Shown here: positions 26,649-43,403 of the stretch, piece by piece | Numbering within the stretch: position 1 is the first letter of the stretch | Layout: each line of letters begins with the position of its first letter | NCBI GenBank assembly: GCA_016789905.1 | Contig: JAEUQC010000041.1 | Span: 1-64,000 of the forward strand | DNA: 64,000 nt | Origin: Bryobacterales bacterium | GTDB taxonomy: Bacteria > Acidobacteriota > Terriglobia > Bryobacterales > Bryobacteraceae | Reading direction: 5' to 3' | The notes under the pieces: generated by a model | Seen by the model: the letters and a program-made list of their open reading frames with translations, nothing else | What the model was told of the DNA's origin: nothing | The model's database searches: none | Position numbers and translations under genes: made by a program

Positions 26649-29399
26649 TTAGAGTTGCCGGCTCCGCTTTTGCCGCTTCCAGAATGGAACCGGATAGCCG
26701 ATCAAGCAGAACTGATCGAGCGCGAACAGCACGATCGATTCCAGGTTCTGCTTCTTGGCCAGCCATGCCTCTTTTTGCCAGTTCGTGGACGAATCACCCG
26801 GCCCCACCAGGAAGCTCCGCCCCGTGCGGGCGAACCCCTTGGATTGGGCAAACCCGATTGAGTACTTGGATTTGTTCAGGTCTCTTGCGAAGGTGAAGCT
26901 GAAGCTTTCCGTCTTCAGGTTGTTGAGCTTCGCCGGCGTCCAGGCCGCGTTTGGATAGTTCACCAGATGCCCCCACGGCGTATCGTTCACATCGGTGGGA
27001 TACAACACCTCGAAACGGCAATTCGGATGCGCGTTCAAAACGTAGGCACGAATCTGGTCGGTAAAGGTTCCGATGAGCGATGGCAGGAACTCCGCCTCCT
27101 CCGGGAAGTCTGCCGGGTCCACATCCCGATTACCGATATACCGGATCGGAAAACCGTACGTCGCCTCGAACTGGTCCTTCGTGTACTGGTCATAGTAGGG
27201 CAGACTAATCTGCGGATCGAACGGCCCCATGTTCGGGAAGTACCACCATTGGACTTCGCCGAACTGCATATAGGGCACGTATCCGGCCGTCGCCAGAATG
27301 TCGGCCATCTCCAGGTGGACTTTTTCCCAGTAGGCCCGGCTGACGGGCGAGAAGTTCGTCTGCAACGCGGGTGTGTTCAGCAAACAGGCTTCTCCAGTGG
27401 AGTAGCGCTGTCCGATACCCGCCTCCGGCGACGGGTCGCCATGCTGCAGTTCGAGTGAGAAGGCGGCGGTCATATCAAGGCCGTAGTCCTTGCAGGCAAC
27501 GTAAAAACCGCGCGACCAGTCCCTGCAGGCCCGGTTGATCCGTGGATCGGCCGTTGTATCGGTATACCAGTTGCCGTCCTCCCCGCCGGTCAGGTTTGCC
27601 GCGGATTTCGTTAGCGAAAACCCGCCGCTTGCCGGCGAGACTTCCAGGCTCACCAGTTCGCCGGCATTGCCCATTGCCCTTGCATAAATGGTCAGCCGCG
27701 TTCCCGAAGCTTCGGCACGAATTGCGGTGTAGCCACGGTTGAACTCCAGCTCGAACGCCTTGGCGATCGTCTCCGCCGTATCGCCATATAGGTTCAAGTG
27801 GCGGACCATTAGTTCCGACGCCGGTTCGCCCACACGTCCAATCGTAATGTCGGTATACTCGTTCACCACCGGCGTTCCAATAAAGTCAATCGTCGCTGAG
27901 GCGTACTGGTGTCCCTTTCGATAGAGCTCGTAAAACCACAACGCGCCGACGTAATGATTCACCCGTCCACGGAAACCCAGCGAATGAATCAGCCACGCGG
28001 TGCGCTCCGCAGGGATCGCCAGGGAGTGATCCGTATCCCAGTCGGTGGCCAGTGTCACCGTCTCATCGACAGGCTGGTTCTCCACCGTGCTCGCTGGAAT
28101 GGCCACTTCCAGAAAATCGAAATAGAACGCGTTACCGCCGGGCCCGTTGTGCGAGATCAGCACTGAATGCTCGCCCGGTCCGTATTGGCCCAAGGGCACC
28201 CGCATCAGCGCATCCTCGCCGTTGGCCCGTAAGGAAAGTACGCGTGGAGTCTCATTGTCCACGCGCAATGCGATATCGGCGCCGGCTGTCAAAAGCCGCG
28301 TGCCCAGATACAGCTCATGCGTCTGCGGACAGCGGTATGGAATCGTTACGCTGTCGCCGTATGCGCCGGTATAGCGAATGGTGCCGCCTGAAAAATTCCC
28401 CTTCGTCTTCACCCAGGCGTTGCCGTAATAGCTGACGCTTCGATGGTTGTCCTCCAGCCGCCGGCTGCCCGGCCCGGCCACGCGGTAGCCGCGGTTGGCG
28501 CCGGTGACGGACCAGTTGCTTATCACCGCCGCGAACTCGCTGCGTTCGTAAGCGCCCGTCTGCATCGCCGCCGCGTACGTCCACCGCATTTTGCGTACCT
28601 TCTGTGTGGGAACAGTCCGGTTCAGCCGGTCCGTCAACGCACCCATCGGCAGCACCACGCGCCATTTCGTCGGTGAAGCGCCGCCGCTGAAGGTGGCCGA
28701 CGCCGGCTCCCAGTACTCTGTCGTGCCAGCGACGGTTCCGTACGCCCCAACCACGTTGCCATTGGCGCCGGTCGTCGAATTCGCCAGCGTCTGGCCGTCG
28801 CCAATGTAGGTGAGTGTGATTACCGCGCCCGCGCTGGCCGCGTGAACGGTTGTCGAATGAGTGTTGATAGCGGTGGCAATTGCGTCAGCGACTGTTGTTA
28901 GAGTATCCCCGGCCACCACATCGTACTTGTGGTTTTCGCTCATCCACGCCAGCCCAATAATGTCCCCTGCGGTGATTGTGCCCTTCAGTTCGAACGTCGC
29001 GGTTGCACATACGTAGGTCCCCTCAATCGGTGTCGCGTAGTCCTTTAGCTTCACCTGGTAGAACGTCTCCACACCATTGTCATCCGCCCACACGCGGAGA
29101 TAAGGCCAATCCACCGTCGGATACAGGTCCGAGTCCAATGGAATGCAGTTGTCGCGTGTTTCCTCATAGGTCAACGTCAGGCCACTTAGGTCGCCGTCCG
29201 GCAGGTTACGAAAACGCGGATGCTCGAATACGTTCTCGCGGTTCCATTCGATAACGCACCAATCGAACTGTTGACGCCACGTCCCGCTGGCGGTAAAACC
29301 AGCGGGCGTGGCGCCACTCATCGCGGCAATCGCCGACGGCCTTTCGAAGTAGACCTGCAAGTCGCGGTCGGGTCGCAGTTTTTCTAGAGTTTCTGGCAT
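26649..29399 (-). CDS. Terminal tail protein of particle locus, beta-rich with TIM-barrel/glycosidase-like C-terminus
   Basis: A 916-residue protein, last gene of the particle block, starting five bases after the hub gene. Around residues 145-225 lies a flagellin/fibre-like module (YDVVAGDTLTTVADAIATAINTHS followed by a GAVITLTYIGDG strand). Around 330-450 there is a carbohydrate-binding-like beta domain. Residues about 640-900 look like a TIM-barrel hydrolase, including AAFSLELQHGDP and YMQFGEVQWWYFPN with acidic residues at strand ends. By position it should be receptor-binding or envelope-degrading. No family is firmly recognised and the catalytic role is inferred. Confidence 0.6.
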   Translation of the reverse strand: MPETLEKLRPDRDLQVYFERPSAIAAMSGATPAGFTASGTWRQQFDWCVIEWNRENVFEHPRFRNLPDGDLSGLTLTYEETRDNCIPLDSDLYPTVDWPYLRVWADDNGVETFYQVKLKDYATPIEGTYVCATATFELKGTITAGDIIGLAWMSENHKYDVVAGDTLTTVADAIATAINTHSTTVHAASAGAVITLTYIGDGQTLANSTTGANGNVVGAYGTVAGTTEYWEPASATFSGGASPTKWRVVLPMGALTDRLNRTVPTQKVRKMRWTYAAAMQTGAYERSEFAAVISNWSVTGANRGYRVAGPGSRRLEDNHRSVSYYGNAWVKTKGNFSGGTIRYTGAYGDSVTIPYRCPQTHELYLGTRLLTAGADIALRVDNETPRVLSLRANGEDALMRVPLGQYGPGEHSVLISHNGPGGNAFYFDFLEVAIPASTVENQPVDETVTLATDWDTDHSLAIPAERTAWLIHSLGFRGRVNHYVGALWFYELYRKGHQYASATIDFIGTPVVNEYTDITIGRVGEPASELMVRHLNLYGDTAETIAKAFELEFNRGYTAIRAEASGTRLTIYARAMGNAGELVSLEVSPASGGFSLTKSAANLTGGEDGNWYTDTTADPRINRACRDWSRGFYVACKDYGLDMTAAFSLELQHGDPSPEAGIGQRYSTGEACLLNTPALQTNFSPVSRAYWEKVHLEMADILATAGYVPYMQFGEVQWWYFPNMGPFDPQISLPYYDQYTKDQFEATYGFPIRYIGNRDVDPADFPEEAEFLPSLIGTFTDQIRAYVLNAHPNCRFEVLYPTDVNDTPWGHLVNYPNAAWTPAKLNNLKTESFSFTFARDLNKSKYSIGFAQSKGFARTGRSFLVGPGDSSTNWQKEAWLAKKQNLESIVLFALDQFCLIGYPVPFWKRQKRSRQL

Positions 29400-29404
29400 A
29401 TGGG

Positions 29405-32400
29405 TCAGAGTCGAACAGTTACAGTCAAGTCAGCTCCTGGCGTGCTGGTGGCCGTCTGGCCCACCGACACAATGTCCAGTTGCAGCAGCGAGCCGCCGCG
29501 CAGCGGCGCCAGCCCGAAACCGTCAACGACGTTGGAAATCGTCCCGTTGACAGGAATTGTCAGCGTGCAAATCACATCGGCGTCCTGGCGCAGCCGCAGT
29601 TCCACCGGTATCTCCGTGGGAGCTTCCAGCACCACGGCGTAAATGTCCTGCATCGCCATGAAGTCTTCAATCACTAAGGGAGGCGTCGCGTCGTCTTCAA
29701 TCGACAATGGCCCCTCCACCTGCAAGTTCAGTTGTCCGCCGCGCATCGTACGCAACCCCAGTTCCGTGGTCGCCGTAAAATGCCGCCGGTCCACCGGGCT
29801 GTCGCCCCGTTGATTGGTGACGAAGAAATCCGCGGCCGCCACCCGGGCGTTCGTCAGATTCACCGTATAGTTGTAGCTGCCGCTTGCCGGCGACCCGAAG
29901 AAGTCGCGGCTGAATGGCACTATTTCCGTTCGCTCCTGCAACGCATAGACGATCTCATCGGCCCCATGCCCAATCGCTGGAGACCCATGGGAACCGCGCG
30001 TCACCTGAAGCGTCGTCCCGCCCGGCGCCACAGCGTCCACGTGCAGAATCTCCTCTCCGATCTGCAGATACTGCCCGGCCACAACACTCGCCGCGCTAAT
30101 TGTGATCGCTGTCTCCACGTCGTCCACCGCGACCGTGGAACGTAGGCCCGACGGGCTCGTCAGTTCGTCCCAATACCGCAGTGTCAATGTGCCCGCAGCA
30201 ATGCTTCGCGTGTTGTCGAACGTGGGAAAACCGACGCCCAAAAGGTCAATGGTCCCGTCGCCCTTCACCTGCATGGAGAACACCGGTTGCGGCGGAACAT
30301 CGAGGTCCAGCAGCATACCGGCGGCACCGACTATACGCCATCGCGTCAGCGGGCACAGTTCAAACGGACACTCTTTATCGTTTGCGTTCGCCGATCGTCC
30401 CGAAACATGCAGCGTATACCCCTCGCGGTTGGGAACCAGGAACGTCACCGGACTCGTAGCCGATGTCGCGCCAAAGCTCCAACTCGGTTCGGCCACCACA
30501 AACTTGCTGGTAGCATCCGGTATCACTGCCCACTTGTCTTCCAGCGTCAACAGCGTCGGCGTGTTTCCGTAGATGCGCCTCTCCTGGCCCTCGCCCTTTC
30601 CTGAGACAATCCGCACCACTTGTCCGCGGTACTCGTTCCCCAGCATCGTGAGTTCTGTATTGCCTACGGTATTCCACGTCGCCTGGTTGGCCCCATGGGG
30701 GCCCTGCAATTCCCACCGCCAGTGGAAATTGGCGTGAGAGTAATTCTCGTCCGGCGGCCCAACAATTCCCTCCGCGGCACCCGTATCCGTGTAGCTTGCC
30801 GCCAGCGGCACGTCGTTCGCCACCCGGTGAAGCTGCTGCGGGCTCGAACCCCGATACACATGAAACGCTTGTGACTCGCTGCTAAAGCTCATGCTTTGCA
30901 GCGTCACCACGTTCGTGTTGGTACCCGGCGGGATCACTGCCCGCACTATGAATGACAATCCACTTTCGGCGCCATCGCCATCCAGCGCCGTCAACGCATA
31001 GTAAAGAATCTGATCCCCAGCCAGCGTCCCGCCTGTCCCTTGGGAAAGCGCGGAAAATCCAACGAGCGGGCTCCCCGCGCGGCTTGCCGATGGCTTCGCC
31101 GGCGCGGTGAATTCTACCGTCAACCGTGTCTGCGCCGAACCGTCCGTCGCGTCGTCATAGCTCTCCGTGATGCCGAACTGCGGAATCCCGTCCTCGTCGA
31201 TCACCGACCCGCCCAGCGGTCGCGGCAGCCCCAGTTCATACTTCGGCTGCCGGCCGCTGGATTCAGCGCCGTTCCCGGCCGTCTGCACGTACCAGTCGTC
31301 ATCGTGAATCTGCGCTGTGATCACCGTTGTCCGGTGGTTCAGCCCCGGCGCCAGTCGCAGCACGCGGAAGGGCTGCCGCAGGAATCCCTCTTTGGTGTAA
31401 GTCAGCGTGATCAAATCGCCTGGCCGCAAGCCAAATCCGCGCACGCTCGTCTCAAACTCAACGTACATGTTCCCGCGTACCGATTTGAGCAGTTGCAGCT
31501 TTACCATCCGCGTCGCCTGGTCGAAATTCGCCAAACCAAGCGCCGGCAGCGCGGCACTGGTCTCCTGGCCGCTCGCCAGCACATCGTCCACATCCACCAG
31601 AGAGACGCTGTCTTGCTGGTACTCATTGAAAGCGTCCTGAAACTCCACGCTGAAACGATTGGGCGCGTCGGCGGAACTGCGGCTGTAGAACCGGATTTTC
31701 GGCTCCCCGCTCTCGCTCCGCAAGAGCCCACCGGCCGGTGTCGAGCCGTCCCCGAACTCGTAGGCCGGCCATCCGTTCAGCAGCACCTCAGTGGCATTGC
31801 TTCCCGCAGGCTTTTGCGCGTGCTGTACGGCCACGGTCGATTCGAACCGGCACTGGAGTTTACCGCCATTTCCGAAACTCAGCAGAAGCCCCGCGCTGTT
31901 CCGTATCCCCCGCAAAACATCGGCAGCGCTCCGGCGCCGGCGCAGAGCCAAGTTGCACTGGAACCGTGGCACCGTAATCGAGTTGCCATGCAGATCGAGT
32001 GTCTGAATCGGATCGTCGCAGTACAGCGCGGTCTCAGCAAAGCTCGCCAGATCCAGTTCCCCTTCTGCCCATCCGCTGCGGCGCAGCACATCCAGCAACA
32101 CCCACGCCGGGTTATTCGTGAACACATTCCCGGTGAAGTTCTCCCCTGTATCGTAGGTGGGCAGCTTCATACCATCCACCAATGCCTTCACCCGCGGCAG
32201 CGAACGTCCGTCGTGAATCCGGTTTGGAACCACGACAGATACAACAGCCATGCTCCCATAGGGATCGCCAACCGGATTGCCGGAGCTATCCCGGAAGTCC
32301 AGGTTGAAATCTCCGGTGCGATTGCCCAGGCTCACCACGTTGTACCATCCAGTGGACGTCATGTCGCGCCCGGCCGAACCCTGCGGAATCTCAATGTCGT

Positions 32401-33331
32401 TGACGACAATCTTCATTACCCCTTGCATCTCGCCGGCGCCCAACAGCACTTCCATCCGTGTCAGGTTGCCATCGTTGCGCGCAAGGGTTACCGGCGGCTG
32501 CACCCACGCGGTGCCATAGATCAACGGCACCACGTCGTTGTACTTGGCCTCGTTGTCGATCGGGCCGCTCAAATGCGAACTCTTTTCGCCATAGCCCCGC
32601 ACCAGCACGCTAGACGGCACGAATTCCACCCCGCCAAAGCGGCGGGTGATGTTGTTGGCGCTGTCGGTCCTGAACATCCCGCGCTGCTCGCACGCGGCTC
32701 GCGTGTAGTCGCAAGAAGTGTAAGGGGTCGAGCCGTTCAGGTTCCCCACCCCGCCGGTTTCGCCCGCTGAATACCCGCAGCGGAAAAACGGCGAGTATGC
32801 GCCCCTGGCGCCGCCGTCCATCCCTTCCTGCCGCTGCGGCGCATCTGCGGGAAACATCCACGGACATCGCTTCTGGATGCGGATCTCCGGCAACAGCAAG
32901 CGCTGAAAATTCAGCCGGTTGTTGAAAGAGAGCCGCATCGCGGATTCACGCATACTTTCCGGCGCATTCGCGATGCCACGAAACAGCACCGCGTCCTCCG
33001 ACGCCGGAGCATCGTTCTTCATATCGAAGAACAGAAAGCGCACGGTCAGCTTTGCGCCTTTCCAGCCGATTGAACGCTCGACCTGCGAATACCGGGAATC
33101 GGTGTTGGCAAGCGTCAGCGATATTTTCGCTGTTGCGTCAATGCCGTCCTCGGACTGCGCGCGAAGATCGAACTGACTATGATCAATAAGCGTTGGCAAA
33201 TACAGGTTCCCGTTAAACGACACCTGGTGCGTCGCCCAGTATTCGTGCTGTCCATTGCGTAGCTCGCAATCGAATAGCAAAATCGGGGTTTCGAGAACTT
33301 CCTGTTCCTTGATTTCGAAAATCGTTGACAT
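29405..33331 (-). CDS. Tail hub/baseplate megaprotein (DUF2163/gpL-like N-terminus)
   Basis: A 1308-residue tail-tip protein. The first 300 residues resemble the DUF2163/BR0599 and lambda gpL hub families: LLFDCELRNGQHEYWATHQVSFNGNLYLP at the start and four spaced cysteines (CPW, FRCGYSAG, SCDYTRAACEQRGMF) before RRFGGVEFVPSSVL, the arrangement that binds an iron-sulphur cluster in gpL. Later regions are beta-sandwich, with Fn3-like parts around residue 780 (QAFHVYRGSSPQQLHRV). In RcGTA the hub functions are split over several genes; here they appear merged in one chain. The exact domain boundaries need profile searches. Confidence 0.75.
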   Translation of the reverse strand: MSTIFEIKEQEVLETPILLFDCELRNGQHEYWATHQVSFNGNLYLPTLIDHSQFDLRAQSEDGIDATAKISLTLANTDSRYSQVERSIGWKGAKLTVRFLFFDMKNDAPASEDAVLFRGIANAPESMRESAMRLSFNNRLNFQRLLLPEIRIQKRCPWMFPADAPQRQEGMDGGARGAYSPFFRCGYSAGETGGVGNLNGSTPYTSCDYTRAACEQRGMFRTDSANNITRRFGGVEFVPSSVLVRGYGEKSSHLSGPIDNEAKYNDVVPLIYGTAWVQPPVTLARNDGNLTRMEVLLGAGEMQGVMKIVVNDIEIPQGSAGRDMTSTGWYNVVSLGNRTGDFNLDFRDSSGNPVGDPYGSMAVVSVVVPNRIHDGRSLPRVKALVDGMKLPTYDTGENFTGNVFTNNPAWVLLDVLRRSGWAEGELDLASFAETALYCDDPIQTLDLHGNSITVPRFQCNLALRRRRSAADVLRGIRNSAGLLLSFGNGGKLQCRFESTVAVQHAQKPAGSNATEVLLNGWPAYEFGDGSTPAGGLLRSESGEPKIRFYSRSSADAPNRFSVEFQDAFNEYQQDSVSLVDVDDVLASGQETSAALPALGLANFDQATRMVKLQLLKSVRGNMYVEFETSVRGFGLRPGDLITLTYTKEGFLRQPFRVLRLAPGLNHRTTVITAQIHDDDWYVQTAGNGAESSGRQPKYELGLPRPLGGSVIDEDGIPQFGITESYDDATDGSAQTRLTVEFTAPAKPSASRAGSPLVGFSALSQGTGGTLAGDQILYYALTALDGDGAESGLSFIVRAVIPPGTNTNVVTLQSMSFSSESQAFHVYRGSSPQQLHRVANDVPLAASYTDTGAAEGIVGPPDENYSHANFHWRWELQGPHGANQATWNTVGNTELTMLGNEYRGQVVRIVSGKGEGQERRIYGNTPTLLTLEDKWAVIPDATSKFVVAEPSWSFGATSATSPVTFLVPNREGYTLHVSGRSANANDKECPFELCPLTRWRIVGAAGMLLDLDVPPQPVFSMQVKGDGTIDLLGVGFPTFDNTRSIAAGTLTLRYWDELTSPSGLRSTVAVDDVETAITISAASVVAGQYLQIGEEILHVDAVAPGGTTLQVTRGSHGSPAIGHGADEIVYALQERTEIVPFSRDFFGSPASGSYNYTVNLTNARVAAADFFVTNQRGDSPVDRRHFTATTELGLRTMRGGQLNLQVEGPLSIEDDATPPLVIEDFMAMQDIYAVVLEAPTEIPVELRLRQDADVICTLTIPVNGTISNVVDGFGLAPLRGGSLLQLDIVSVGQTATSTPGADLTVTVRL

Positions 33332-33354: not shown

Positions 33355-34146
33355 TTAGTAGGGGCGGCTTTCGATGCGTATCTCGGCCGCGTTATTGTTC
33401 GGTGCCTGTTGAATCCAGGCCAGTTCGTCATCGGCAAACCGGGCATTCGGATACAATCCACACCGCGAGTTTGTCCGCCGGTATCCGCCCGGCGCCAACT
33501 GGGCGTCCGCTTGCATTCCGGTCACCGTCACAGACTGCCCTGGCTCCAGCAGCAGACTGAATGTCACTGATTCGGCGTTGCTTCCAGGACGCGCGTTTAC
33601 CGAATAGCGCTTCCAATCCGCATCGGCGATAAACGCTCGCTCCGTCACCACTCCGCCCGAATCGATGCGGAGGCGAAACTGCTGTCCGCTGCCGGTTACA
33701 TAGGCGCTCAGACAGTACTGCAACGTTCCCGGAGCATTGATAGTTTGGGCGAATCCCTGCATCGCAGCGCCCGCGTTGGACACAGTTGTTCCTCTCGTCA
33801 TCCCCCACGGGTCCGCCGCGCCGGAAACCTGCGCCAGCATCGGATCGGCGGTCCAGATTCCCTCGCTGAAGTCCTCGCTCCACTTGAGCAGATTCGCCGC
33901 CGGGTCCAGAAAGACGAAGTCCTGCAATCGCCCTTCGCACTCGGCGAAGAGCGCGTCGATCGCGCCCCTTTCCCCGGTTGTCAGCCCCTCATATTGCAAC
34001 ACCCAACCCACACGTGCGGCACTGCCGTCGTAGTAGGTTCGCAGCCGTCCGTCCAATGATTCGTGCTTGACCAGCCGCTCCCGCCGTTCCCGGCGGAGCG
34101 GGTATTGCCCCGCCGTAAAGGTTTCGAGTTGTGGAAAGTAGCGCAT
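33355..34146 (-). CDS. Distal tail protein with embedded carbohydrate-binding-like domain
   Basis: A 263-residue protein. The first 75 residues (SLDGRLRTYYDGSAARVGWVLQYEGLTTGERGAIDALFAECEGRLQDFVFLDP) share a pattern with the next gene upstream and with phage distal-tail proteins that contain WxLxxxxLxxxEkxaldaFF and FvDP. Residues about 78-230 form an inserted jelly-roll-like domain (NLLKWSEDFSEGIWTADP is a common lead-in to such phage sugar-binding domains). It is likely part of the tail tip, with surface binding inferred. Confidence 0.6.
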   Translation of the reverse strand: MRYFPQLETFTAGQYPLRRERRERLVKHESLDGRLRTYYDGSAARVGWVLQYEGLTTGERGAIDALFAECEGRLQDFVFLDPAANLLKWSEDFSEGIWTADPMLAQVSGAADPWGMTRGTTVSNAGAAMQGFAQTINAPGTLQYCLSAYVTGSGQQFRLRIDSGGVVTERAFIADADWKRYSVNARPGSNAESVTFSLLLEPGQSVTVTGMQADAQLAPGGYRRTNSRCGLYPNARFADDELAWIQQAPNNNAAEIRIESRPY

Positions 34147-34149
34147 GAG

Positions 34150-34506
34150 TTACCTGTTCTGCCGCACCACCAGGCGCGTGCGGCCATCGTGAAATCCTGT
34201 GAAATCAAAATAGACGTCCGGGTTTTCCAGACTGCATCCGGTGTACTCGGTCTCGTCCCAAGGGTCCACAAACGTGAACGTGCCGTAGCCGCCTTGCTCG
34301 GCGAGGAAGAACGCCTCCATCGCGTCCATCTCCTCCTCATCGAGCATTGTGAGTTGCACAATCCATCGCCGCAGCGGTCCGCCGAACTCCCGGAACCGTT
34401 GTTCACTCCCATCGACGAATCGCATTACCTGCGTCGAAAAACGCGTTGTTCGCTGTGCCGGGTATTGGGCCACGGCGCCCGTCTTCAGTCGTGGAAACTC
34501 GTCCAT
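34150..34506 (-). CDS. Small distal-tail (Dit/DUF2460-like) protein
   Basis: A 118-residue protein between the tape-measure-like gene and the larger distal-tail protein. RRWIVQLTMLDEEEMDAMEAFFLAEQGGYGTFTFVDPWD is the pattern of phage tail-tip proteins in which a helix is followed by an F-x-D-P turn. The neighbouring 263-residue protein uses the same plan, so the two may be paralogues forming adjacent rings. Gaps to both neighbours are ten bases or fewer. Confidence 0.65.
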   Translation of the reverse strand: MDEFPRLKTGAVAQYPAQRTTRFSTQVMRFVDGSEQRFREFGGPLRRWIVQLTMLDEEEMDAMEAFFLAEQGGYGTFTFVDPWDETEYTGCSLENPDVYFDFTGFHDGRTRLVVRQNR

Positions 34507-35770: not shown

Positions 35771-36943
35771 TTATGCAAAGGCGATCTGTATTTCGTCATC
35801 CGCGGAACCCTGTGCTGCGCTCAGCGTGAAGTTCCACTCCAGCCTCGGCTGGCGATCATCGAATTCGGGCACTTCCGGCACCACCGCGGGCAGGTAGATG
35901 CCGCACAACTGCCCGGCGCTCTGCCCAAGCTGGATCATGATCGAAATCGGTGTGCGGTTCTTCGCGGCTTGGTAGAGCCCGAGGGTCGCCGCATCGTCCT
36001 TCTCATAGATCCGGAATTTGATCCCCACTTCCCGTTCCCCCGCCGCGATACACGTGGGCCCGGCGTAGCCGAACTCGCGTTTTCGCATGTCCACGTTGTT
36101 GGCGATCTCAATCTCCGCCTCGGTCAACGTGAAAAACTGCGTCGGCGAAGTTCCAATCCATACCTGGCCAATATGGCCGGGGATAATGTTGTAGTCAACG
36201 CCGCCGACCGCCGGTTCCACCGGAAACGAACTCAAGCCGGCGAGCCCGGAGGAAAACGTCGCGCTGTCAAGCAGGTCCTTCGCCTCGCCGGCGAACTCAA
36301 ACTCGTGGTAGTCGGCGTTCACCTTGATCTTCATTCGGTCCACGCCAGCCCCGGTTAGTGCGCGCTGCACCGCCGTGGCCGGGCTCCAATAGTCAAAAAT
36401 GCTGACGCTCGGCAGGCTCGTCGCTGGCCCGTAAGTCAAGGTAGGATTCAGCGGCGATCCGCCCGATGGCGTCAGCGTAAACGGCGCGTTCAGCTCCACC
36501 GTATTGGCGTTCACCACCGCGGCGACAAACCGGATCTCCCCCCCAAAGCTCACCGCCTGGCCCGCCGCCAGCCCATGGGCCGCGCCAAACGTCAATTGGT
36601 TGTTGCTGCCGGCGGAGGCAACGCTCTGCCCCCCATCCAACAACGGCGCGGCGCCCAGCGCCCCGCGGATGAGCGGACCGTAGGACGGCTCGGCGTTGAT
36701 ATTGCTCCAGTTGGTCATATAGGTCCCCAACTGGTATCGGGTGCGCGTGCGCGCTCCGGATGGTATCCCCGCGCGCGTTCGCGTGCCCGTCTTGTCGCGG
36801 CGCGGGCCCTGCACGGTTTCATGTTGTATGCCAAGGCGGATCGCTGGAATGCGATTCTCCGCCGTTGCCTCAACAACGGCGCCGAAGCTCGACTCCAGCG
36901 TCGCGTAGAAGCGGTTCTGATTGGAAGAAATGTAACAAGCCAT
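35771..36943 (-). CDS. Major tail (tube) protein
   Basis: A 390-residue protein in the tail-tube position between head-tail joining genes and the chaperone. The mixed beta sequence includes NQLTFGAAHGLAAGQAVSFGGEIRFVAAVV (residues about 112-142, an Ig-like insertion), VDRMKIKVNADYHEFEFAGEAKDLLDS near 195 and ITAEIEI-like strands (LTEAEIEIANNVDMRKREFG). This fits phage major tail proteins that polymerise as hexamer rings. The name rests on position and fold pattern rather than on a specific match. Confidence 0.68.
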   Translation of the reverse strand: MACYISSNQNRFYATLESSFGAVVEATAENRIPAIRLGIQHETVQGPRRDKTGTRTRAGIPSGARTRTRYQLGTYMTNWSNINAEPSYGPLIRGALGAAPLLDGGQSVASAGSNNQLTFGAAHGLAAGQAVSFGGEIRFVAAVVNANTVELNAPFTLTPSGGSPLNPTLTYGPATSLPSVSIFDYWSPATAVQRALTGAGVDRMKIKVNADYHEFEFAGEAKDLLDSATFSSGLAGLSSFPVEPAVGGVDYNIIPGHIGQVWIGTSPTQFFTLTEAEIEIANNVDMRKREFGYAGPTCIAAGEREVGIKFRIYEKDDAATLGLYQAAKNRTPISIMIQLGQSAGQLCGIYLPAVVPEVPEFDDRQPRLEWNFTLSAAQGSADDEIQIAFA

Positions 36944-36989
36944 GTCTTAGCCTTCCTGCTGAATTTTTACGGACGCCTCGCGCGCCCGC

Positions 36990-37484
36990 CTATACGCTCA
37001 CCTGAACGTCGAAGCTCACCTTAGCGGTCTGAAGGAAGTTCTTTCCCCCATGCTTGACGGGTTGGTAGGTTACGGTGTAGCCCCCGGTGTAGAAGAGGCC
37101 GCTGTCCCAGTCACCGCGGTTGCCGTCCAGCACTTCGGTCAATGCGTCGACATACCACTGCAGTTTCTGGTCCAGCCCCTCCAGCCGGTCATGCGTCACC
37201 CGCACATCCACACTCAACGTTGCCGTGCCGGAAAACTGCCGGAACTTCTCGCGCAGCGTGTTCTGCAGCTTCTCGCAATAGATATGAAATGCCGGATACT
37301 TGGTTCCGGCGCTCTTCTCGATCACTTCGGCGGGCACGTTCTGCGCGATGATCTGCGCCAGTTCGATGAGTGGCAACACCACTTGGTTCTTCTGCGCGAT
37401 GTTCGCCAAGCCTGCCTGCAGCCCGGCCGGTGCCCGCAGCAGGCCCGCTGCTTTTTGTACGGCGATTGTCCCGATCTGTGCCAT
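36990..37484 (-). CDS. Head-tail joining/tail-terminator-like protein
   Basis: A 164-residue protein; ATG 37484 is chosen because it lies four bases after the previous gene ends. The C-terminal half (LSVDVRVTHDRLEGLDQKLQWYVDALTEVLDGNRGDW, then GGYTVTYQPVKHGGKNFLQTAKVSFDVQVSV) has the alpha-beta plan of phage tail-terminator and minor-capsid proteins. It lies just upstream of the tail tube, the usual place for a terminator. Evidence is positional. Confidence 0.5.
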   Translation of the reverse strand: MAQIGTIAVQKAAGLLRAPAGLQAGLANIAQKNQVVLPLIELAQIIAQNVPAEVIEKSAGTKYPAFHIYCEKLQNTLREKFRQFSGTATLSVDVRVTHDRLEGLDQKLQWYVDALTEVLDGNRGDWDSGLFYTGGYTVTYQPVKHGGKNFLQTAKVSFDVQVSV

Positions 37485-37488
37485 AGAG

Positions 37489-38235
37489 TTACCCCCGGTG
37501 CAGCACAGGTACGTGCCGCAGGTAATGTTCCGCCGTCTGCCCGGTGCCCGGAGAAGTGCCCGCCGCCAGCCCGGTGGAAGGCATGGTCCATGTCGCGCCG
37601 AGTTCCAAAGGAGCGTTGTTCTGACGCTGCATCTGATCGTCCAGCAGTCCGGCATACAGATTCCATCCGCGAGCGTTCGGCGGCGCGCCAATCGCGCGGA
37701 CGGTCAGCGCCGTGCCTTCCATCGTCGTGATGCCCGCCGTTTCGCTCGGGGAACTGGCCACACCGTGTGCGTCCACCCATTCCACACGGACATAGAACGT
37801 GCGTGCCGGGTGCGCTCCCGCTAGTTGACCCAACAACGGTTGCACCGGTTTGGCCAGAGGATTGAATACCAGCCCCACTCCGGTTTCAAACAGCATTTGC
37901 CCCGCCGCCCGCGCCAGCCGCTCGTACTCTTTCCACTTGTGTTTGTGCCGGTCGTTGAGTTGCTGGAAATGCGCGTCGCGGTAGGTGGCCGCCAGCGCCA
38001 GTAGCGTGTGCCACTGTTTTAATCCACTGGTCAGGGCCACGTGTCCTAAGGTGTATTGCTGGCCGCCGGGCGTCTGCGCCATCAGCCGCTGCAGTTCCAG
38101 CCCGATTTCCAGCGCCGCCACCGTCGCCTTCGCCGTCAAGTCGATGCCCTCGGTGGCGGCCACTTCCACGATCGCGCTTTCGTAGTTTGCCAGGTCGGTG
38201 ATTTGAGAAGGATTGCCATCCACAAAGAGCGCCAT
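37489..38235 (-). CDS. Head-tail connector-like protein with C-terminal Ig/Fn3-like domain
   Basis: A 248-residue protein. ATG 38235 has AAGGAG just upstream; a GTG at 38253 would overlap the preceding gene. Residues 1-130 are helical (AIVEVAATEGIDLTAKATVAALEIGLELQRL) and resemble small head-completion proteins. Residues about 140-225 form a beta-sandwich-like domain (RTFYVRVEWVDAHGVASSPSETAGITT, GWNLYAG) typical of Fn3 decorations on virions. The function is inferred from position between coat and tail genes. Confidence 0.5.
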   Translation of the reverse strand: MALFVDGNPSQITDLANYESAIVEVAATEGIDLTAKATVAALEIGLELQRLMAQTPGGQQYTLGHVALTSGLKQWHTLLALAATYRDAHFQQLNDRHKHKWKEYERLARAAGQMLFETGVGLVFNPLAKPVQPLLGQLAGAHPARTFYVRVEWVDAHGVASSPSETAGITTMEGTALTVRAIGAPPNARGWNLYAGLLDDQMQRQNNAPLELGATWTMPSTGLAAGTSPGTGQTAEHYLRHVPVLHRG

Positions 38236-38245
38236 ATCCGTCTCC

Positions 38246-38578
38246 TTATTCACCCTTCCGGGAGGGTTGCATCGCCTTCTTCAACGACCGCAACTCGTCT
38301 TCTGCCAGCCGCGTCATTCGCACGCGTTCCTGCAGCGCCGCGATGTCCCGCTGGCGTTGCTGCTCCTCGCGCTCCTCGCGAAGCTTTTTCACTTCTTCCG
38401 GTGTCGCCAGCCGCGCCAGTTTGTCCACCACCAGCTTGGCGGCTGTCGCCCGGCTTACTTCCGAAAAGACGCCCGCCCGTCCGCCATTGGGCGTCTCCAG
38501 GCTGACGGTCAGAACGAAGGATTCTTCGATCGCGGCTTCTTGCTCCGCAATCTCGCGGTAGTAATCTTTCAGGTTCAT
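38246..38578 (-). CDS. Small helical protein of particle locus, function unknown
   Basis: A 110-residue charged protein following the coat gene. The N-terminal half has short strands (SFVLTVSLETPNGGRAGVF) and the C-terminal half is a long predicted coiled coil (PEEVKKLREEREEQQRQRDIAALQERVRM). The region GGAATCCT before ATG supports the start. It could be a head-completion or assembly factor; no family is recognised. Its stop overlaps the possible GTG start of the next gene. Confidence 0.6.
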   Translation of the reverse strand: MNLKDYYREIAEQEAAIEESFVLTVSLETPNGGRAGVFSEVSRATAAKLVVDKLARLATPEEVKKLREEREEQQRQRDIAALQERVRMTRLAEDELRSLKKAMQPSRKGE

Positions 38579-38597
38579 AGGATTCCTCTCATGAAAG

Positions 38598-38626: not shown

Positions 38627-38653
38627 GTCTTGAACGGCGACGGTCCCCAGCGG

Positions 38654-39565
38654 TTAGCTGCGAACCTGAACACCATGCGTGTTGCGCAGAACCGCGACGC
38701 CGTACAGCACGTCCACGGTGAACTGCTGCGCAAGCGTGTTGGGCTGGTAGCTCATCACCACTCGCATGCCGAAGTTGCCCAGTTCGGCGTATTCGGCCAC
38801 CGCGCCCGTGCCCGGCAAGGGTTGCGGCAGGCGGCGCATCACCAGGCCGATTCCGTCCTTGGCGAACGCCAGATTGTTGGTCGTCACCGGGCCGCTGCCG
38901 GTCTTGGAAATGAACTGCGAACGGAAAACGAAGAAGTCCTTCAGCTTCCCGACGCTGCCATCGATCATTGCGCGAACACCCGCTTCGCCGGCCGTGGCGT
39001 ATTCGCTGAAGCGCGGAATCTGGCGGAGTTGCGAATAGGTCGAGCCGTCGACAATCAGGTACTTCTGCGCGCTGGCCGGAACCTTCGCGTTGAACAACGC
39101 CGTCTCCGCCTGGTCAATCGCCGATTCAGTGATCGGCGATCCGCCCGTCCCCACCGCCGGGTTGGCGGTGAACTGCGCGTACAGGTTCATCAGGTCGGTC
39201 TCAATCTTCTCGGCGATCGCAATCACGGCCGGCTCCATGTAAAGCTGGAGAAGATCGGGCACCGCCAAAACCTTGGTCACGTCCGGAATCTGGAACGTGG
39301 CTTCAGCGTGGGTGTTCAATACGATCTGCCCATTCCCAAGGCTGGGATTCTGGGTGGTCACGGAGCCGCCCTGGGCGATATTGTTCGCCGTCAATGTCGG
39401 CGGAATCGGCACATTGACCGTATCTCCGGCCTGGGCCAACGTCGGCTCGAAGCTCCGGTTCACCAGGTTACCCATCACCAGGTTGCCCATCAAGGCGGGC
39501 AGCGCATCGGCGGCCACGAGTTTCACAATCGCATTGGCGACGTTCGAAGAGGTAATTGCAGGCAT
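38654..39565 (-). CDS. Major capsid (coat) protein, P22-coat-like
   Basis: A 303-residue protein. ATG 39565 is preceded by GGGAGAGC, and the upstream in-frame codons are not needed. The opening MPAITSSNVANAIVKLVAADALPALMGNL and the phrase NRSFEPTLAQAGDTVNVPIPP are typical of the P22-type coat family (HK97 fold). It lies between scaffold and head-tail genes, and is isolated from both by hairpins, which suggests separate control of its high expression. Confidence 0.85.
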   Translation of the reverse strand: MPAITSSNVANAIVKLVAADALPALMGNLVMGNLVNRSFEPTLAQAGDTVNVPIPPTLTANNIAQGGSVTTQNPSLGNGQIVLNTHAEATFQIPDVTKVLAVPDLLQLYMEPAVIAIAEKIETDLMNLYAQFTANPAVGTGGSPITESAIDQAETALFNAKVPASAQKYLIVDGSTYSQLRQIPRFSEYATAGEAGVRAMIDGSVGKLKDFFVFRSQFISKTGSGPVTTNNLAFAKDGIGLVMRRLPQPLPGTGAVAEYAELGNFGMRVVMSYQPNTLAQQFTVDVLYGVAVLRNTHGVQVRS

Positions 39566-39631
39566 TCTGCTCTCCCAATAAAAAGATTCGGCCCGGATTT
39601 TCTCCAGGCCGGTTGTAGTCTTAGTTAACCC

Positions 39632-39688
39632 AAGCCGGCGCTTGGCGCCAGCTTGCGTAGGTTGCCGGGGGCTCACGCCCACCGGCAA
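39632..39688 (-). repeat. Two consecutive hairpins between scaffold and coat genes
   Basis: First: AAGCCGGCGC (39632-39641) with GCGCCAGCTT (39645-39654), ten pairs including one G-T, loop of three. Second: TTGCCGG-GGGC (39662-39672) with GCCC-A-CCGGCAA (39677-39688), loop TCAC and one bulged base. They occupy most of the 166-base gap before the coat gene. No T-run follows, so mRNA processing or 5'-end stabilisation of the coat message is a possible role. Confidence 0.6.
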
Positions 39689-39731
39689 GATCGTGTGCGA
39701 GTCGCGGTCTCCGCTCCTCGCCAAACTTCTG

Positions 39732-40307
39732 TTAGAGGTGCGTCGTCAACTGCGACGCCACCCGGGCGATTTCCTGACGGGCCCGCTCCATCTCTTCCTT
39801 CGACATTCCCGGACGGATCTTGTCCAGATCGAAGGAGGAACTGAAACCTCCGGCGCGGTGATTTCCGCTCGCGCCGGATCCACCCGTCACCCTGGCGGGC
39901 AGCAGTTCCGGGTTTTCCCCAACGAAGTGGGTGAGGTATTCCTTCAACCCCATTTCGCCTTGCCCCGTATTGGCCACCAGACGGCCGTCACCGGTCCGCT
40001 GGATGTCGTCTTTGACCGCCTTATAGGCCAGGTCTACCTTGTTCACGCCGAGCCGCTGCAGTTCCGATCGGATCGCCGTGTTGCGTTCCGCCTCTTCGGC
40101 GATCAGCCGGCTTCGTCGGTTCTCCTCCACCAATTCATTCATGCGGCGTTCGAGCGTTTCGCGCCGGCGCCGTTCATCTTCGAGTTCCGCCTTGTAGGCC
40201 GGCTCACTCTTTGCCGTCTCCTGGTTCACGAACTCGCGAATCGCGTCCTGGATCAGGGCCCGGATGTCGGGCGATTTCGGCGCCTCGTTTTTTACGTTTT
40301 CTTCCAT
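39732..40307 (-). CDS. Capsid scaffolding protein
   Basis: A 191-residue highly charged helical protein between portal and coat genes, the standard scaffold position. A coiled-coil region KAELEDERRRRETLERRMNEL (residues about 39-59) is followed by an acidic and Gly/Ser-rich linker and a basic C-terminal helix (PGMSKEEMERARQEIARVASQL) suited to binding coat protein. No protease motif is seen, so it is probably not autocleaved. Confidence 0.78.
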   Translation of the reverse strand: MEENVKNEAPKSPDIRALIQDAIREFVNQETAKSEPAYKAELEDERRRRETLERRMNELVEENRRSRLIAEEAERNTAIRSELQRLGVNKVDLAYKAVKDDIQRTGDGRLVANTGQGEMGLKEYLTHFVGENPELLPARVTGGSGASGNHRAGGFSSSFDLDKIRPGMSKEEMERARQEIARVASQLTTHL

Positions 40308-40319: not shown

Positions 40320-41735
40320 TTACCGTTTCTCGCGGGTCATCCATTCATCGATTTCCCGCGCGATCGTGTCTTTCAAATCCTGCCGCTCGTCGCACAGATA
40401 CTTGAAAGCCAGCTTCTTGTAGATCTGCCGGCGGAGCGTCGGCGACCCGACTCCCAATTCCAGCAGTCTTCGGGCATCGTCGATCTCCGCGGAGAAGTCG
40501 CCGATGTCGAACTCGTCCAGGCCGGATACACCGATGGACAAATCGTCCTCCCGCGCCTGTTCCACCGCTCGCAGCACCCGCTGCATGGCGTCCTTCACCG
40601 TGTCGCCAAAGCTGCGCAGCACTTCCTGCGTAATGGCAAAATCGCGTTGCTTGCTCAGTCCTGAGATTGTGCGTCCGTCGGCCGAGGTCTGTCCGGCCTG
40701 CGCCAGCAGATAACAGACACGGTAGATCTCCTCCTTCAGCCGGTCCAGGTTCTTGGACGCGATTTCGTAAACGTGACCTTCCGGCTCCGCCCAGCCGAAC
40801 TTGTCTTCCGGCCCCATCTGAATGTAGTAGCTCTCTCCGATGATCTGGTTCCAGCTCTTGTCGGAGTAGATCACCGGCGTCGCAAACAGGCCCATCGTCA
40901 GCGCCCAGCCCAGCGCGTTCGACTTGTTGAAGTGTTCCAACTGAAGCGACGCGGCCTTGTTCATCAGCCACATCCCGTCGGATAACTTCAGTTCGAACAG
41001 CGGAACCCGCTTCTGCCGCGCCAAACCGTGCAGCCCTTCAGCCACCAGTTCAATCGGTCTTGCGTCGCTGCCCGTCCCAAACATACCGGGCTTGCTGATC
41101 TGCCGGTAACTCCTGAACTTCTCCCGGTCGTAGTAGTGCCAGTTGGTCTCAAGCATCGGTTCGGCGTCTTCCAGCCGTTGCCGCCGCATCTGGGATGTGC
41201 GGATCACTACCCAGTCGAATTCCCCTCGCTCGTTCGTCGACCAGTTGATGAGCTCGTCCGGAGCATAACTCACCAGGTAGGCATTCGCCGCCCCGACGGC
41301 CTCTTCTTCCGCTCGATTCTGCAGCTTCTGGTGCTGTAGCGGAAAGTCGACCAGTGTGTAGCTCGAACCGCAAATCAGCGCCTCTAGAATCTGACGGCGG
41401 AAAAAGTCGCTTATCTTCGAGCCTTTCCGGTCGCAGTCCTCCACAAACGAGTTGAAGAACTTCCGGCCTATTTCGTTATCGCCGTCCACGCTGATCACCG
41501 GTTCCCGGCGGAACAGCGTGGCCGCGTACCAATCGACAATCGAGCCGATATAGTTCTCATAAAACGCCCGGTTTAGCCGCTCCTGGTACACACCAACCGG
41601 CTCCCGGTTGCGCTGCACCAGATACTCACCAGCCTGGGCCTTGAACTGCGCGCCACCCGTGTAGAGGTCGCGATACTGTTTCCACAGCGCATGGCGCGCT
41701 TTGTATTCGTGATGTTCCGTGTTGATTTCGATCAC
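40320..41735 (-). CDS. Portal protein
   Basis: A 471-residue protein. GTG 41735 is preferred over a longer frame because GGAGGAAGG lies about 15 bases upstream and the chain then opens IEINTEHHEYKARHALWKQYRDLYTGG. Portal-like features are the YLVQRNREP-YQERLNRAFYENYIGSIVDWYAATLF stretch near residue 35, a central region with DKSWNQIIGESYYIQMGPEDKFGWAEPEG, and a C-terminal crown helix region. It would form the dodecameric DNA channel. It lies between terminase and scaffold. Confidence 0.82.
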   Translation of the reverse strand: MIEINTEHHEYKARHALWKQYRDLYTGGAQFKAQAGEYLVQRNREPVGVYQERLNRAFYENYIGSIVDWYAATLFRREPVISVDGDNEIGRKFFNSFVEDCDRKGSKISDFFRRQILEALICGSSYTLVDFPLQHQKLQNRAEEEAVGAANAYLVSYAPDELINWSTNERGEFDWVVIRTSQMRRQRLEDAEPMLETNWHYYDREKFRSYRQISKPGMFGTGSDARPIELVAEGLHGLARQKRVPLFELKLSDGMWLMNKAASLQLEHFNKSNALGWALTMGLFATPVIYSDKSWNQIIGESYYIQMGPEDKFGWAEPEGHVYEIASKNLDRLKEEIYRVCYLLAQAGQTSADGRTISGLSKQRDFAITQEVLRSFGDTVKDAMQRVLRAVEQAREDDLSIGVSGLDEFDIGDFSAEIDDARRLLELGVGSPTLRRQIYKKLAFKYLCDERQDLKDTIAREIDEWMTREKR

Positions 41736-41777
41736 GTTCTTGCTCCACGTCCTTCCTCGCGTGGCGCCGAAAAAGCA

Positions 41778-41833
41778 AGGCCGCCGTATACCGCCAGCGC
41801 CCCCGGTTGGAGTGCTCGCGGTACCGGCGGCCT
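41778..41833 (-). repeat. Large imperfect hairpin between terminase and portal genes
   Basis: AGGCCGCCG (41778-41786) pairs with CGGCGGCCT (41825-41833), and TACCGC (41789-41794) with GCGGTA (41818-41823), leaving a small internal loop and a 23-base apical loop. It fills the 133-base gap between the large terminase and portal genes. It could be a partial terminator, an RNA-processing site or a DNA signal for packaging. Confidence 0.65.
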
Positions 41834-41868
41834 GTGCCAGTCCGTCGCCCGGAAAATTCAAATACTGC

Positions 41869-43170
41869 TTAGAACAATGGCCGGTTCTGGTAGCCGATCG
41901 GCTGCCGGTACCGCTGTTCCTGCCACACCAGATAGCCCAACGCGTCGGAAAGGTGCGTCCGCCGGGGGTCTTTGGTTTTATCGATAATCATCGTGCCTTC
42001 AAGTAGTACCACCTGCTCCAGGTCAACGATCAATTCTTTGCAACGCGGATCGATGAGCAAGCGCCGCTCGCCGCTGGCGTTCCGCAGCGATCCGTTCATT
42101 ATGTCCAGCCGGTCACGCACCGCCGGATTAGTCTTGGGCACGCGATACTCAACGTTGTTCATGCAATTCTGGTTGAAAAACCGCCGCATCATCGAGTAGT
42201 CACTGCTCCCGGTGGTCTGCATCCGGCTGCCGGAGGCATCCCCGTAAATGATGATCCGCTGCGCGTTCGGATACCGTCGCACGAACTCCATGCAGGCTTC
42301 CTCCGTTGTCACCCGGTTCAGGACGATTTCGTCCAGCACCCGGATCCGGTCTCCGTCCATCTGCGCAATCACCGACGACATCGGATTCACATTGAAATCC
42401 AGCGCCCATAACAGCGGCTGCCGCGGGTCATACTCCTGCTCCCTCACGTTCTCCAGCCGGTCAAACGCGTCGTAGGCGCGGCCGGCCGTCACGTTCAGAT
42501 ACTGCCCCAACACTTCCTGCTGGTAAAAGCGTTCGTCGTAGCTCCGCTTCAACCGTTCGTAGAAATCCGGAATCTGCTCCAGCAGGTGGCGGTTTTCGTT
42601 TGCCTTTGCCAGCACAACTCCATAGCCATCCACTGGTTCGGCGACGAACCGCCGGTACACCCAGTCGAACCCTTTCGGGGTCCAAACCGCATAGCCGCAT
42701 AGCATCTTCGCCCGTGGGTCGCGCAAACGCGCCTCCAGCCGCAGCCACGCTTCCTCCTGGCAATACGTCAGCTCATCGATGCCGAACCAGGCCAGATTCG
42801 TGCCCCGCAGCCGCTCATAGTCATCGAGCGACCGGAACAGCACTTTGGAACCGACTTCAGTGAAAACAATGAAATTCTCTGCCTTGTTGAACTCGAACGG
42901 AATCTTGCACCGGTCCAGAATTTCGAACAACGCCGCCTGCGTCGCGTCCCGCAACATCGGGAACGTCGGCGCGCCCAACAGGCCAAGCCGGCCGGGATTC
43001 ATGTAGCTCAAACGGATGGCTTCCTGACAAAGAGCCTGACTTTTCCCGGACCCGACCGGCCCGGAGAAGCCCTTAAACCGGCTCGCCAGCCGGTGGAATT
43101 GCGATTGGGACGGTAGAGCGTCGTACTCTATGTTCCGGACTCGTCGTCCGCGCGGAGCCGATCTACCCAT
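41869..43170 (-). CDS. Terminase large subunit (packaging ATPase/nuclease)
   Basis: A 433-residue DNA-packaging motor. Walker A GPVGSGKS is at residues 37-44 and Walker B LAWFGIDE ends at D132-E133. The RNase-H-like nuclease follows with ALDFNVNP (D258), IIYGDASG (D311) and THLSDALGY near 413, so all catalytic acids are kept. AGGAGG before ATG 43170 supports the start, which overlaps the preceding gene by 43 bases. Intact active sites argue against decay. Confidence 0.92.
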   Translation of the reverse strand: MGRSAPRGRRVRNIEYDALPSQSQFHRLASRFKGFSGPVGSGKSQALCQEAIRLSYMNPGRLGLLGAPTFPMLRDATQAALFEILDRCKIPFEFNKAENFIVFTEVGSKVLFRSLDDYERLRGTNLAWFGIDELTYCQEEAWLRLEARLRDPRAKMLCGYAVWTPKGFDWVYRRFVAEPVDGYGVVLAKANENRHLLEQIPDFYERLKRSYDERFYQQEVLGQYLNVTAGRAYDAFDRLENVREQEYDPRQPLLWALDFNVNPMSSVIAQMDGDRIRVLDEIVLNRVTTEEACMEFVRRYPNAQRIIIYGDASGSRMQTTGSSDYSMMRRFFNQNCMNNVEYRVPKTNPAVRDRLDIMNGSLRNASGERRLLIDPRCKELIVDLEQVVLLEGTMIIDKTKDPRRTHLSDALGYLVWQEQRYRQPIGYQNRPLF

Positions 43171-43403
43171 CGAACTTCTACCTCCTTCACTTGTTCCGCT
43201 GTCAGGTCTTTGTAAACCTGTAGCAATTTCAGGAGTTCTCCTACAGAAGTCTTGCTGGAATTTTCCTCATTTTCCAGGTTGTCCATCTGCTTCGCAATCA
43301 TTTTTTTCAGACGTGTCGTGTTCAAGTCGACACTCGTCCGCTTGCTCTTTCTAGCAACGGACTTAGCGTCTCTCTTCTTCTTTCCTTCCACTGTCTCTAA
43401 CAT
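43128..43403 (-). CDS. Small basic/helical protein, candidate small terminase
   Basis: A 91-residue protein, first of the particle block, with CAGGAGGTGAC before its ATG. The N-terminal third is very basic (KKKRDAKSVARKSKRT), which fits DNA binding. The rest is helical (GELLKLLQVYKDLTAEQVKEVEVRWVDRL), which could mediate ring assembly. Position immediately upstream of and overlapping the large terminase suggests the DNA-recognition subunit. There is no recognised helix-turn-helix, so this is an inference. Confidence 0.5.
   Translation of the reverse strand: MLETVEGKKKRDAKSVARKSKRTSVDLNTTRLKKMIAKQMDNLENEENSSKTSVGELLKLLQVYKDLTAEQVKEVEVRWVDRLRADDESGT

Follow-up and report, generated by a model that had tools for sequence, protein, structure and literature searches.

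To our knowledge, gene transfer agents (GTAs) with known genes have been confirmed in only a few groups (Alphaproteobacteria and a spirochete). As viriforms, GTAs are defined as tailed particles of caudoviricete origin that carry mostly random host DNA, are fully endogenised, often at several loci, have a head too small for the whole locus, are inherited mostly vertically and co-diversify with their hosts, and deliver DNA to other cells (Kogay et al. 2022, PMC9662315). BaGTA (Bartogtaviriformidae) and BhGTA/VSH-1 (Brachygtaviriformidae) are independent domestications of tailed phages for the transfer of host DNA (PMC9662315). The tail spike TspA of RcGTA is encoded apart from the main cluster, and GafA, the activator of that cluster, binds the tspA promoter (PMC13420450). 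No earlier report of a GTA in Acidobacteria/Acidobacteriota, Solibacter or Bryobacter was found in the literature searched. Here, we analyse a tailed-particle locus at positions 26649-43403 of a stretch of 64,000 nucleotides (nt) (the window; contig JAEUQC010000041.1, here C203) from an 8.1-Mb draft genome (G000) of the family Bryobacteraceae (f1; Acidobacteriota).

We consider it probable that a domesticated tailed particle of the Bryobacteraceae, inherited mostly vertically, has its main structural operon here, and that this particle is most likely a GTA that arose independently of the alphaproteobacterial ones. One 'active' prophage each has been described in Bryobacter and Solibacter (Eichorst et al. 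2018, PMC5900883), and some of these prophages may be the same locus.

Gene Content of the Particle Locus

Fifteen closely packed minus-strand genes in head-to-tail order make up the locus; gene calls and profiles bore out the arrangement of about 15 such genes given in a preliminary description made from the sequence.

43128..43403, minus strand: small-terminase candidate, 91 amino acids (aa), by position only; overlaps the start of terL by 43 nt, no convincing profile match
41869..43170, minus strand: terminase large subunit (TerL), catalytic residues intact (PF03237, 3.3e-9; phrog_2, 6e-35)
40320..41861, minus strand: portal protein (phrog_145, 3.5e-50); start uncertain, the true one probably further in (homologues ~465 aa)
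39732..40307, minus strand: head scaffolding protein (phrog_206, 2.6e-4, and gene order)
38654..39565, minus strand: P22-type major coat protein, 303 aa (PF11651, 1.4e-17; phrog_283, 2e-41); start set from 13 homologues
38246..38578, minus strand: small, fast-evolving head-region protein g6, syntenic in 31 of 33 loci; no profile match
37489..38253, minus strand: head-tail connector candidate g7, by position; syntenic in 33 of 33 loci
36990..37490, minus strand: tail completion/terminator candidate g8, by position; syntenic in 33 of 33 loci
35771..36943, minus strand: tail tube protein (phrog_290, 4e-14)
35402..35767, minus strand: tail assembly chaperone, zero-frame product of 121 aa, by position; slippery site at the 3' end
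34517..35086, minus strand: very short tape-measure protein, 189 aa (phrog_3779, 7.6e-4 over the C-terminus)
34150..34506, minus strand: distal tail protein, DUF2460 type (PF09343, 7e-13)
33355..34146, minus strand: second DUF2460-like distal tail protein (PF09343, 0.016; phrog_2913)
29405..33331, minus strand: J-like tail hub, 1308 aa (PF13550; phrog_31, 3e-23)
26649..29399, minus strand: terminal tail-tip/adsorption protein (PF23845, 4e-16, non-contractile-sheath TIM barrel; PDB profile matches)

Most of the assignments proposed at first were recovered by profile, with the coat start moved from 39724 to 39565, the portal start uncertain and the small terminase placed by position only. The tape-measure-like gene gave a weak match to phrog_3779 but encodes only 189 aa. 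The terminase had been credited with all its catalytic acids; residues G40/K43/S44, D132/E133, D258, D311 and D409 were invariant in an alignment of 17 homologues. The coat had been called P22-like, in agreement with its PF11651 and phrog_283 matches. No match to the HK97-type Phage_capsid family, the HK97/gp5 type being that of the RcGTA clade, was obtained at E 0.1, the coat being set apart by family profiles only. PDB profile searches with g7, g8 and the tube returned nothing credible.

Integrase, repressor, replicase, holin and endolysin genes had not been visible in the locus, and gene calls and profile searches found none among its genes. Exact direct repeats of at least 13 nt, searched for as possible attachment-site (att) repeats, were absent between the two locus borders. 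Integrase/att, replication and lysis modules were likewise absent among the genes within the syntenic loci of other genomes and among their recurring neighbours, the flanks of these loci not being profile-scanned singly. The host-like base composition was reproduced: GC content is 60.2% in the locus and 61.2 and 60.8% in the flanks, and GC content at third codon positions matches too.

Distribution and Synteny

TerL was present in 84 of 101 family genomes and in 4 of 298 others in a class-wide sample; in some genomes (G002, G007, G011, G353, G404) its apparent absence is due to a contig break. The hub was surveyed in the 148 family genomes with completeness of 90% or more and contamination of 5% or less. 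It was found in 124 of them and in 62 of 64 genera, nearly always as a single copy and with no internal stops among the copies listed. Thirteen core genes (terL-portal-scaffold-coat-g6-g7-g8-tube-chaperone-tape measure-distal tail 1-distal tail 2-hub) were collinear in all 33 loci with a complete core, one small gene falling below the search threshold in three of them. These loci span 13.3-17.7 kb and are free of cargo apart from a 3.5-kb stretch in G044, which is inserted between the tape measure and distal tail 1.

Conserved synteny, which the preliminary description had named as a check, was thus observed in 33 of 33 loci. The sporadic occurrence among relatives that would have spoken against domestication was not seen, the locus being near universal and single copy. 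The proposed position next to ilvB held for genera g1, g7, g19 and g42 but is not general, and ilvBHC may lie on either side of the locus. The recurring neighbours are ordinary chromosomal genes, namely ilvBHC/leuA-type genes, a Wzt-like ABC transporter or an Xaa-Pro peptidase, and no adjacent regulator or lysis gene was widely shared among them.

In public records, the close relatives are metagenome genomes of Bryobacteraceae/Bryobacterales, 'Candidatus Sulfopaludibacter' and 'Candidatus Solibacter' among them, and the locus is also present in Bryobacterales bacterium F-183 (AP025252.1). Many copies are listed in IMG/VR as 'virus' contigs of 16.3-17.4 kb that start within ~700 nt of terL (L256, L258, L264-L266, L273, L277, L286, L299, L302, L313, L326, L327). 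Virus catalogues thus repeatedly list this host locus as a small virus.

Vertical Descent and Selection

Trees of 36 genomes were calculated with FastTree from concatenated cluster genes (3,310 columns) and from rpoB (1,217 columns). They shared 19 of 33 splits, as compared with a mean of 0.26 and a maximum of 2 after shuffling of names. Of the 14 rpoB splits supported at 0.95 or more, the cluster tree recovered 12 and contradicted one by a well-supported split of its own. Distances in the two trees were correlated (0.77; reached in 0 of 2,000 permutations, maximum 0.31). The check by phylogeny suggested at the outset therefore came out in favor of vertical inheritance, and these comparisons indicate that the descent of the locus is mostly vertical.

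Between G000 and G003, the ratio of nonsynonymous to synonymous divergence (dN/dS) was 0.07-0.26 for the cluster genes, with g6 highest, and 0.03-0.05 for ilvBHC. Synonymous divergence (dS) was of the same order in both (0.44-1.95 for the cluster genes, 0.67-0.90 for ilvBHC). For the pair G009/G017, dN/dS was 0.02-0.26 where dS was unsaturated, and two saturated genes gave ratios of the corresponding proportions (pN/pS) of 0.12 and 0.30. Head and packaging genes were constrained much like tail genes (dN/dS of 0.095 for terL, 0.156 for coat and 0.096 for hub), and the overall range for the 15 genes was 0.07-0.30. With dS like that of the neighbours and dN/dS low, locus and neighbours are of about the same age in these pairs, and purifying selection acts on the genes for head, packaging and tail alike.

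These data bear on the idea that the locus is a decaying, functionless prophage remnant. A deletion in G004 and a loss in G014 fit such decay, but the hub copies listed lack internal stops, dN/dS is well below 1 in all genes, and the frameshift signal and upstream element described below are conserved. The selection data already contradict this explanation, and we regard it as highly improbable. The domestication proposed in the preliminary description is strongly supported by synteny, prevalence, vertical descent, purifying selection and the lack of att repeats and integrase at the locus.

A Frameshift Signal in the Chaperone Gene

Spacing between neighbouring genes is -43 to 75 nt, except for scaffold-coat (166 nt) and chaperone-tape measure (315 nt, 35087-35401). 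The zero-frame chaperone gene ends CGA AAA AAC TAA, an exact slippery heptamer of the form X_XXY_YYZ, and two features are placed here.

35405..35411, minus strand: A_AAA_AAC slippery heptamer directly before the stop codon
35079..35404, minus strand: -1 frame extension of the chaperone, ~107 codons, containing a CxxC motif

The gap between chaperone and tape measure is accounted for, since the -1 frame extension fills it. The same heptamer stands at the chaperone stop in 35 of 39 loci, where an open -1 extension of 105-129 codons follows. As a new finding, the tail-chaperone gene thus carries a conserved signal for -1 frameshifting. The slippery site is missing in G044, G057 and G020.

Operon and Remote Copies of the Tail-Tip Gene

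The terminal tail-tip protein matched N4 gp64 (1e-8) as well as 7ehg, a MiXBM entry, in PDB profile searches; the latter match is read here as a putative carbohydrate-binding module. The best match of its predicted fold was the N4 tail sheath 9yf5 (model pLDDT 73, moderate). The gene is absent after the hub in 13 genomes (G134, G158, G370, G389, G281, G247, G162, G029, G204, G118, G112, G211, G253), all of which encode a homologue of ~1,030 aa elsewhere. This remote copy lies megabases away in G389, G204 and G118, and ~2 kb off and inverted in G162. Genomes with the tip gene in the operon (G000, G003, G025) had no second copy; in G077 and G024, a second copy sits beside a hub homologue and is thus prophage-like.

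A Shared Upstream Element and a Putative Regulon

A conserved sequence was found upstream of terS.

43499..43548, minus strand: ~50-bp upstream element, putative promoter/activator site (50.6 bits with a position weight matrix; next-best site in the window 9.4 bits)

Its consensus is GKTCACA-N~27-TTTTCAATxAcTTr, with an AT-rich middle. In leave-one-out scoring, it was present in 87 of 96 unique operon upstream regions, above the 99% level of shuffled controls. A sigma-70 promoter scan gave no excess over shuffled sequence. In nine genomes (G118, G204, G253, G247, G281, G389, G162, G370, G158), the element also precedes the orphan tip gene by 47-121 nt, ranking 1-3 among 24,000-40,000 positions. 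Several of these sites score low (2-11 bits), and those of G118 (32 bits) and G204 (19 bits) are strong. The element ranked first but was weak at the orphan-tip locus of G359, and it did not stand out at the orphan-tip loci of G134, G029, G211 and G022 or before five prophage-type tip genes (ranks 7-85). In G118, of genus g37, the operon begins with the portal gene and the element stands directly before it (27 bits).

A sequence-only model of the element was trained on operon upstream regions plus three g37/orphan sites. With E up to 1, this model matched 2-26 sites in most of the family genomes that were searched; in the controls G040, G041, G047 and G060, it matched 1-2 sites, which were weak. 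The best match in G000 (C76:54910, 35.4 bits, E 9e-8), which was outside the training set, scored above the operon's own site. It precedes, by ~300 nt, an operon of three genes (G000:C76:54910-59000, L460) for a TPR-CHAT protein (PF12770, 2.8e-44), an extracytoplasmic function (ECF) sigma factor (TIGR02937, above cut-off) and a cysteine-containing, anti-sigma-like protein of 222 aa without a family match. The same operon with the element was found in G003 (C40, L475) and in G118 from another genus (C3:1859500-1865400, L472), and in G009 the element precedes a TPR gene of this type. Since autoregulated ECF operons are common, the ECF sigma factor is predicted to read the ~50-bp element.

The element was further located 30-140 nt before small-terminase-like 'RANA' genes, named after the N-terminus ANRANAxxSTGPxTxxGKxRS of their products. 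These are found at five loci of G000 (C61, L466; C110, L469; C22, L462; C46, L463; C138, L465) and in G118 (C4; L470, L471), G112, G247, G389 and G134. Two of the RANA genes in G000 are followed by a stand-alone TerL, one full length and one split, and in the g37 genomes G118, G211 and G253 the element stands directly before TerL-like genes. In G118, the operon lacks terS-terL and is intact from portal to hub (C3:2899842-2911761). Profile searches of the g37 genomes (G118, G112, G211, G253, G435, G436) found no recognisable terL of the particle type genome-wide. The RANA and solo terminase modules may be alternative packaging modules of the particle.

Other sites of the element show no obvious relation to the particle; the element is therefore not exclusive to it. 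One such site recurs on the 3' side of the gene for an outer-membrane protein, at a position conserved between G000, G003 and G004, with no obvious gene there (G000:C96, L461 4756-5209; G004:C30, L479 557-1199). In two of these three genomes, it is followed by tandem repeats of 215-220 bp that are unlike in sequence.

Taken together, the shared element, the split tip, the ECF-sigma operon and the terminase modules suggest a multi-locus regulon, as in RcGTA. A more specific proposal is tentative: the particle operon would be one arm of the regulon, the TPR-CHAT/ECF-sigma operon would read the element, and the solo terminase modules would be interchangeable motors, replacing the terL of g37, or parasites that redirect particles to their own neighbourhood.

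Such parasitism also enters a different explanation, in which the locus is a satellite with its own capsid genes, or a helper-dependent element, and relies on a phage for its mobility. Its compact size would fit, and the particle could be parasitised by the solo terminase modules that share its upstream element. However, satellites are sporadic, and this locus is near universal, mostly vertically inherited and devoid of integrase and replicase; we judge a satellite very unlikely.

The g37 operon, which persists without terL, is also relevant to the possibility that the phage-derived particle serves killing or secretion (tailocin-like or PBSX-like), being domesticated to attack competitors and packaging DNA at most incidentally. 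Any domesticated particle could show vertical inheritance and purifying selection, and a tip that varies in location beside an invariant core would suit such a weapon. Tailocins, however, lose head and packaging genes. Here head genes and terL are under purifying selection, the constraint on head, portal, scaffold and terL genes is close to that on tail genes, the TerL motifs are invariant, and the terminase-like genes elsewhere in g37 bear the same element. A killing particle is therefore considered unlikely, and a DNA-carrying particle of GTA type is preferred.

Prophage Relatives and Distant Phage Matches

Three prophages of the Bryobacteraceae (G129:C156, G270:C144, G247:C1) encode coats 62-79% identical to the particle coat. 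As far as their contigs reach, they share the order portal-scaffold-coat-tube-chaperone-distal tail-hub with the particle locus. Unlike it, they lie in longer regions, are sporadic and have replication and DNA-modification families nearby: a set of 40 proteins encoded in the regions of G129 and G247, products of flanking host genes included, gave family matches to DNA polymerase, beta-clamp, SSB, RusA, ParB and methyltransferase. In place of the tape measure, the prophages have open frames of 999 and 1,145 aa, whereas 32 particle loci have stop-to-stop frames of 181-337 aa. The family, as judged from these comparisons, hosts a mobile-looking relative as well as a stripped, fixed, short-tailed version.

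Such true prophages in the same family, and the many IMG/VR entries of ~16-17 kb starting at terL, could be taken to mean that the locus is itself a family-specific temperate phage or prophage hot spot, apparently stable, with replication, integration and lysis genes elsewhere or trimmed. Yet 0 of 33 loci from many genera contain such genes, the recurring flanks are ordinary chromosomal genes, and the locus is single-copy almost everywhere and co-diversifies with rpoB. We give this explanation little credence and retain the domesticated particle.

Matches to named phages are distant (15-33% identity) and spread over unrelated phages. The best were the N4 tail sheath for the tip (fold and sequence), the terminase of cyanophage KBS-S-2A for terL (33%) and Streptomyces phage Keanu for the coat (27%). 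Among 50,697 phage records, the hub had two weak partial matches only, and the coat matches listed were below 28% identity.

Immediate Surroundings of the Locus

The locus is bordered by ilvB (end 26340) on one side and by an aminotransferase gene (start 44183) on the other. A gene for a 176-aa protein, present in a few g1 genomes only, lies between the latter and the operon. The single tRNA gene of the window is at 49046.

Model of the Particle and Points Against It

In the model that we propose, expression of the operon, and in many lineages also that of the unlinked tail-tip gene, is probably turned on through the shared promoter-like element. Scaffold and P22-type coat would build the head, which the terminase would load with DNA. 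The 189-aa ruler and the frameshifted chaperone would set a short tail, and the tip, with its N4-sheath-like and predicted carbohydrate-binding regions, would recognise related cells. The cargo should be mostly host chromosome, because the locus has no gene by which it could be replicated or integrated. Lysis would proceed through genes located elsewhere.

Several observations weigh against a vertically inherited GTA. Particle, packaged DNA and transfer are predictions from the genes, and no lysis gene was found in the locus. A full-length terL of the particle type also occurs in three genomes from other families, and the copies in two of these, G044 and G057 (L041-L044), nest within the family clade of the cluster tree; the locus must therefore have moved between families at least once. 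G004 has one clean internal deletion at the same place, which leaves terS, 43 terL codons and the second half of the tip gene, and G014 has ilvBHC but no trace of the locus there. As some genomes have thus lost the locus, it is dispensable. Genus g37 keeps the operon without terL. Finally, energetically cheap amino acids are a trait reported for RcGTA-like GTAs. Such a bias was not seen here, costs being mostly equal to or higher than those in three sets of prophage homologues (a small sample).

If the model is correct, an independently evolved GTA made of different building blocks is present in essentially a whole family of a soil phylum that ranks among the most abundant and the least tractable, and it offers a testable mechanism for gene exchange among soil Acidobacteria. 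That a family of soil and groundwater keeps the particle kit in nearly every genus, inherited vertically and tied to a shared control sequence, would be expected of a GTA carrying DNA between related bacteria. The prophages of the same family would reveal what a phage loses on domestication, namely replication genes and tail length, and the shared element would provide a handle on induction. New here, besides the frameshift signal, are the ~50-bp element, the remote tip and the occurrence of the element before the TPR-CHAT/ECF-sigma operon and solo terminase modules.

Comparison with Known Gene Transfer Agents

Three of the six features that define GTAs were found. TerL, portal, coat, tube, distal tail and hub match phage families, so that the predicted tailed particle would be built of caudoviricete-derived proteins. 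Endogenisation, with dispersal over several loci, is seen in the lack of mobility genes, in the remote tip (13 of 13 genomes, most with the element) and in the detached or lost terL of g37. Inheritance is mostly vertical with co-diversification (19 of 33 and 12 of 14 rpoB splits; 124 of 148 genomes). The DNA to be set against the capacity of the head would be the 13.3-17.7 kb of the locus together with the remote genes. From its genes, we class the particle as domesticated and of GTA type, which falls short of a proven GTA, and we place it in no named GTA family.

BaGTA and BhGTA/VSH-1 differ from the particle in host and are likened to it by description, not by sequence; BaGTA uses a phage-derived replication origin, and no such origin was noticed here, where no search was aimed at one. 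From RcGTA (Rhodogtaviriformidae, the alphaproteobacterial type I GTA), the particle is set apart by its P22-type coat with scaffold, by a different TerL and hub, and by an N4-sheath-like tip with a TIM barrel in place of the TspA beta-helix. It also differs in its ilv-linked site in several genera and in the shared element with a candidate ECF-sigma operon, as opposed to GafA/CtrA. RcGTA nevertheless has a DUF2460-type distal tail protein and a large hub, as the particle locus does. Both are structure-only operons of similar size and head-to-tail order, with a short tail and no replication or integration genes, and both are near-universal in an order or family. The virion genes of both are divided among loci, the remote tip of the Bryobacteraceae corresponding to the unlinked TspA of RcGTA.

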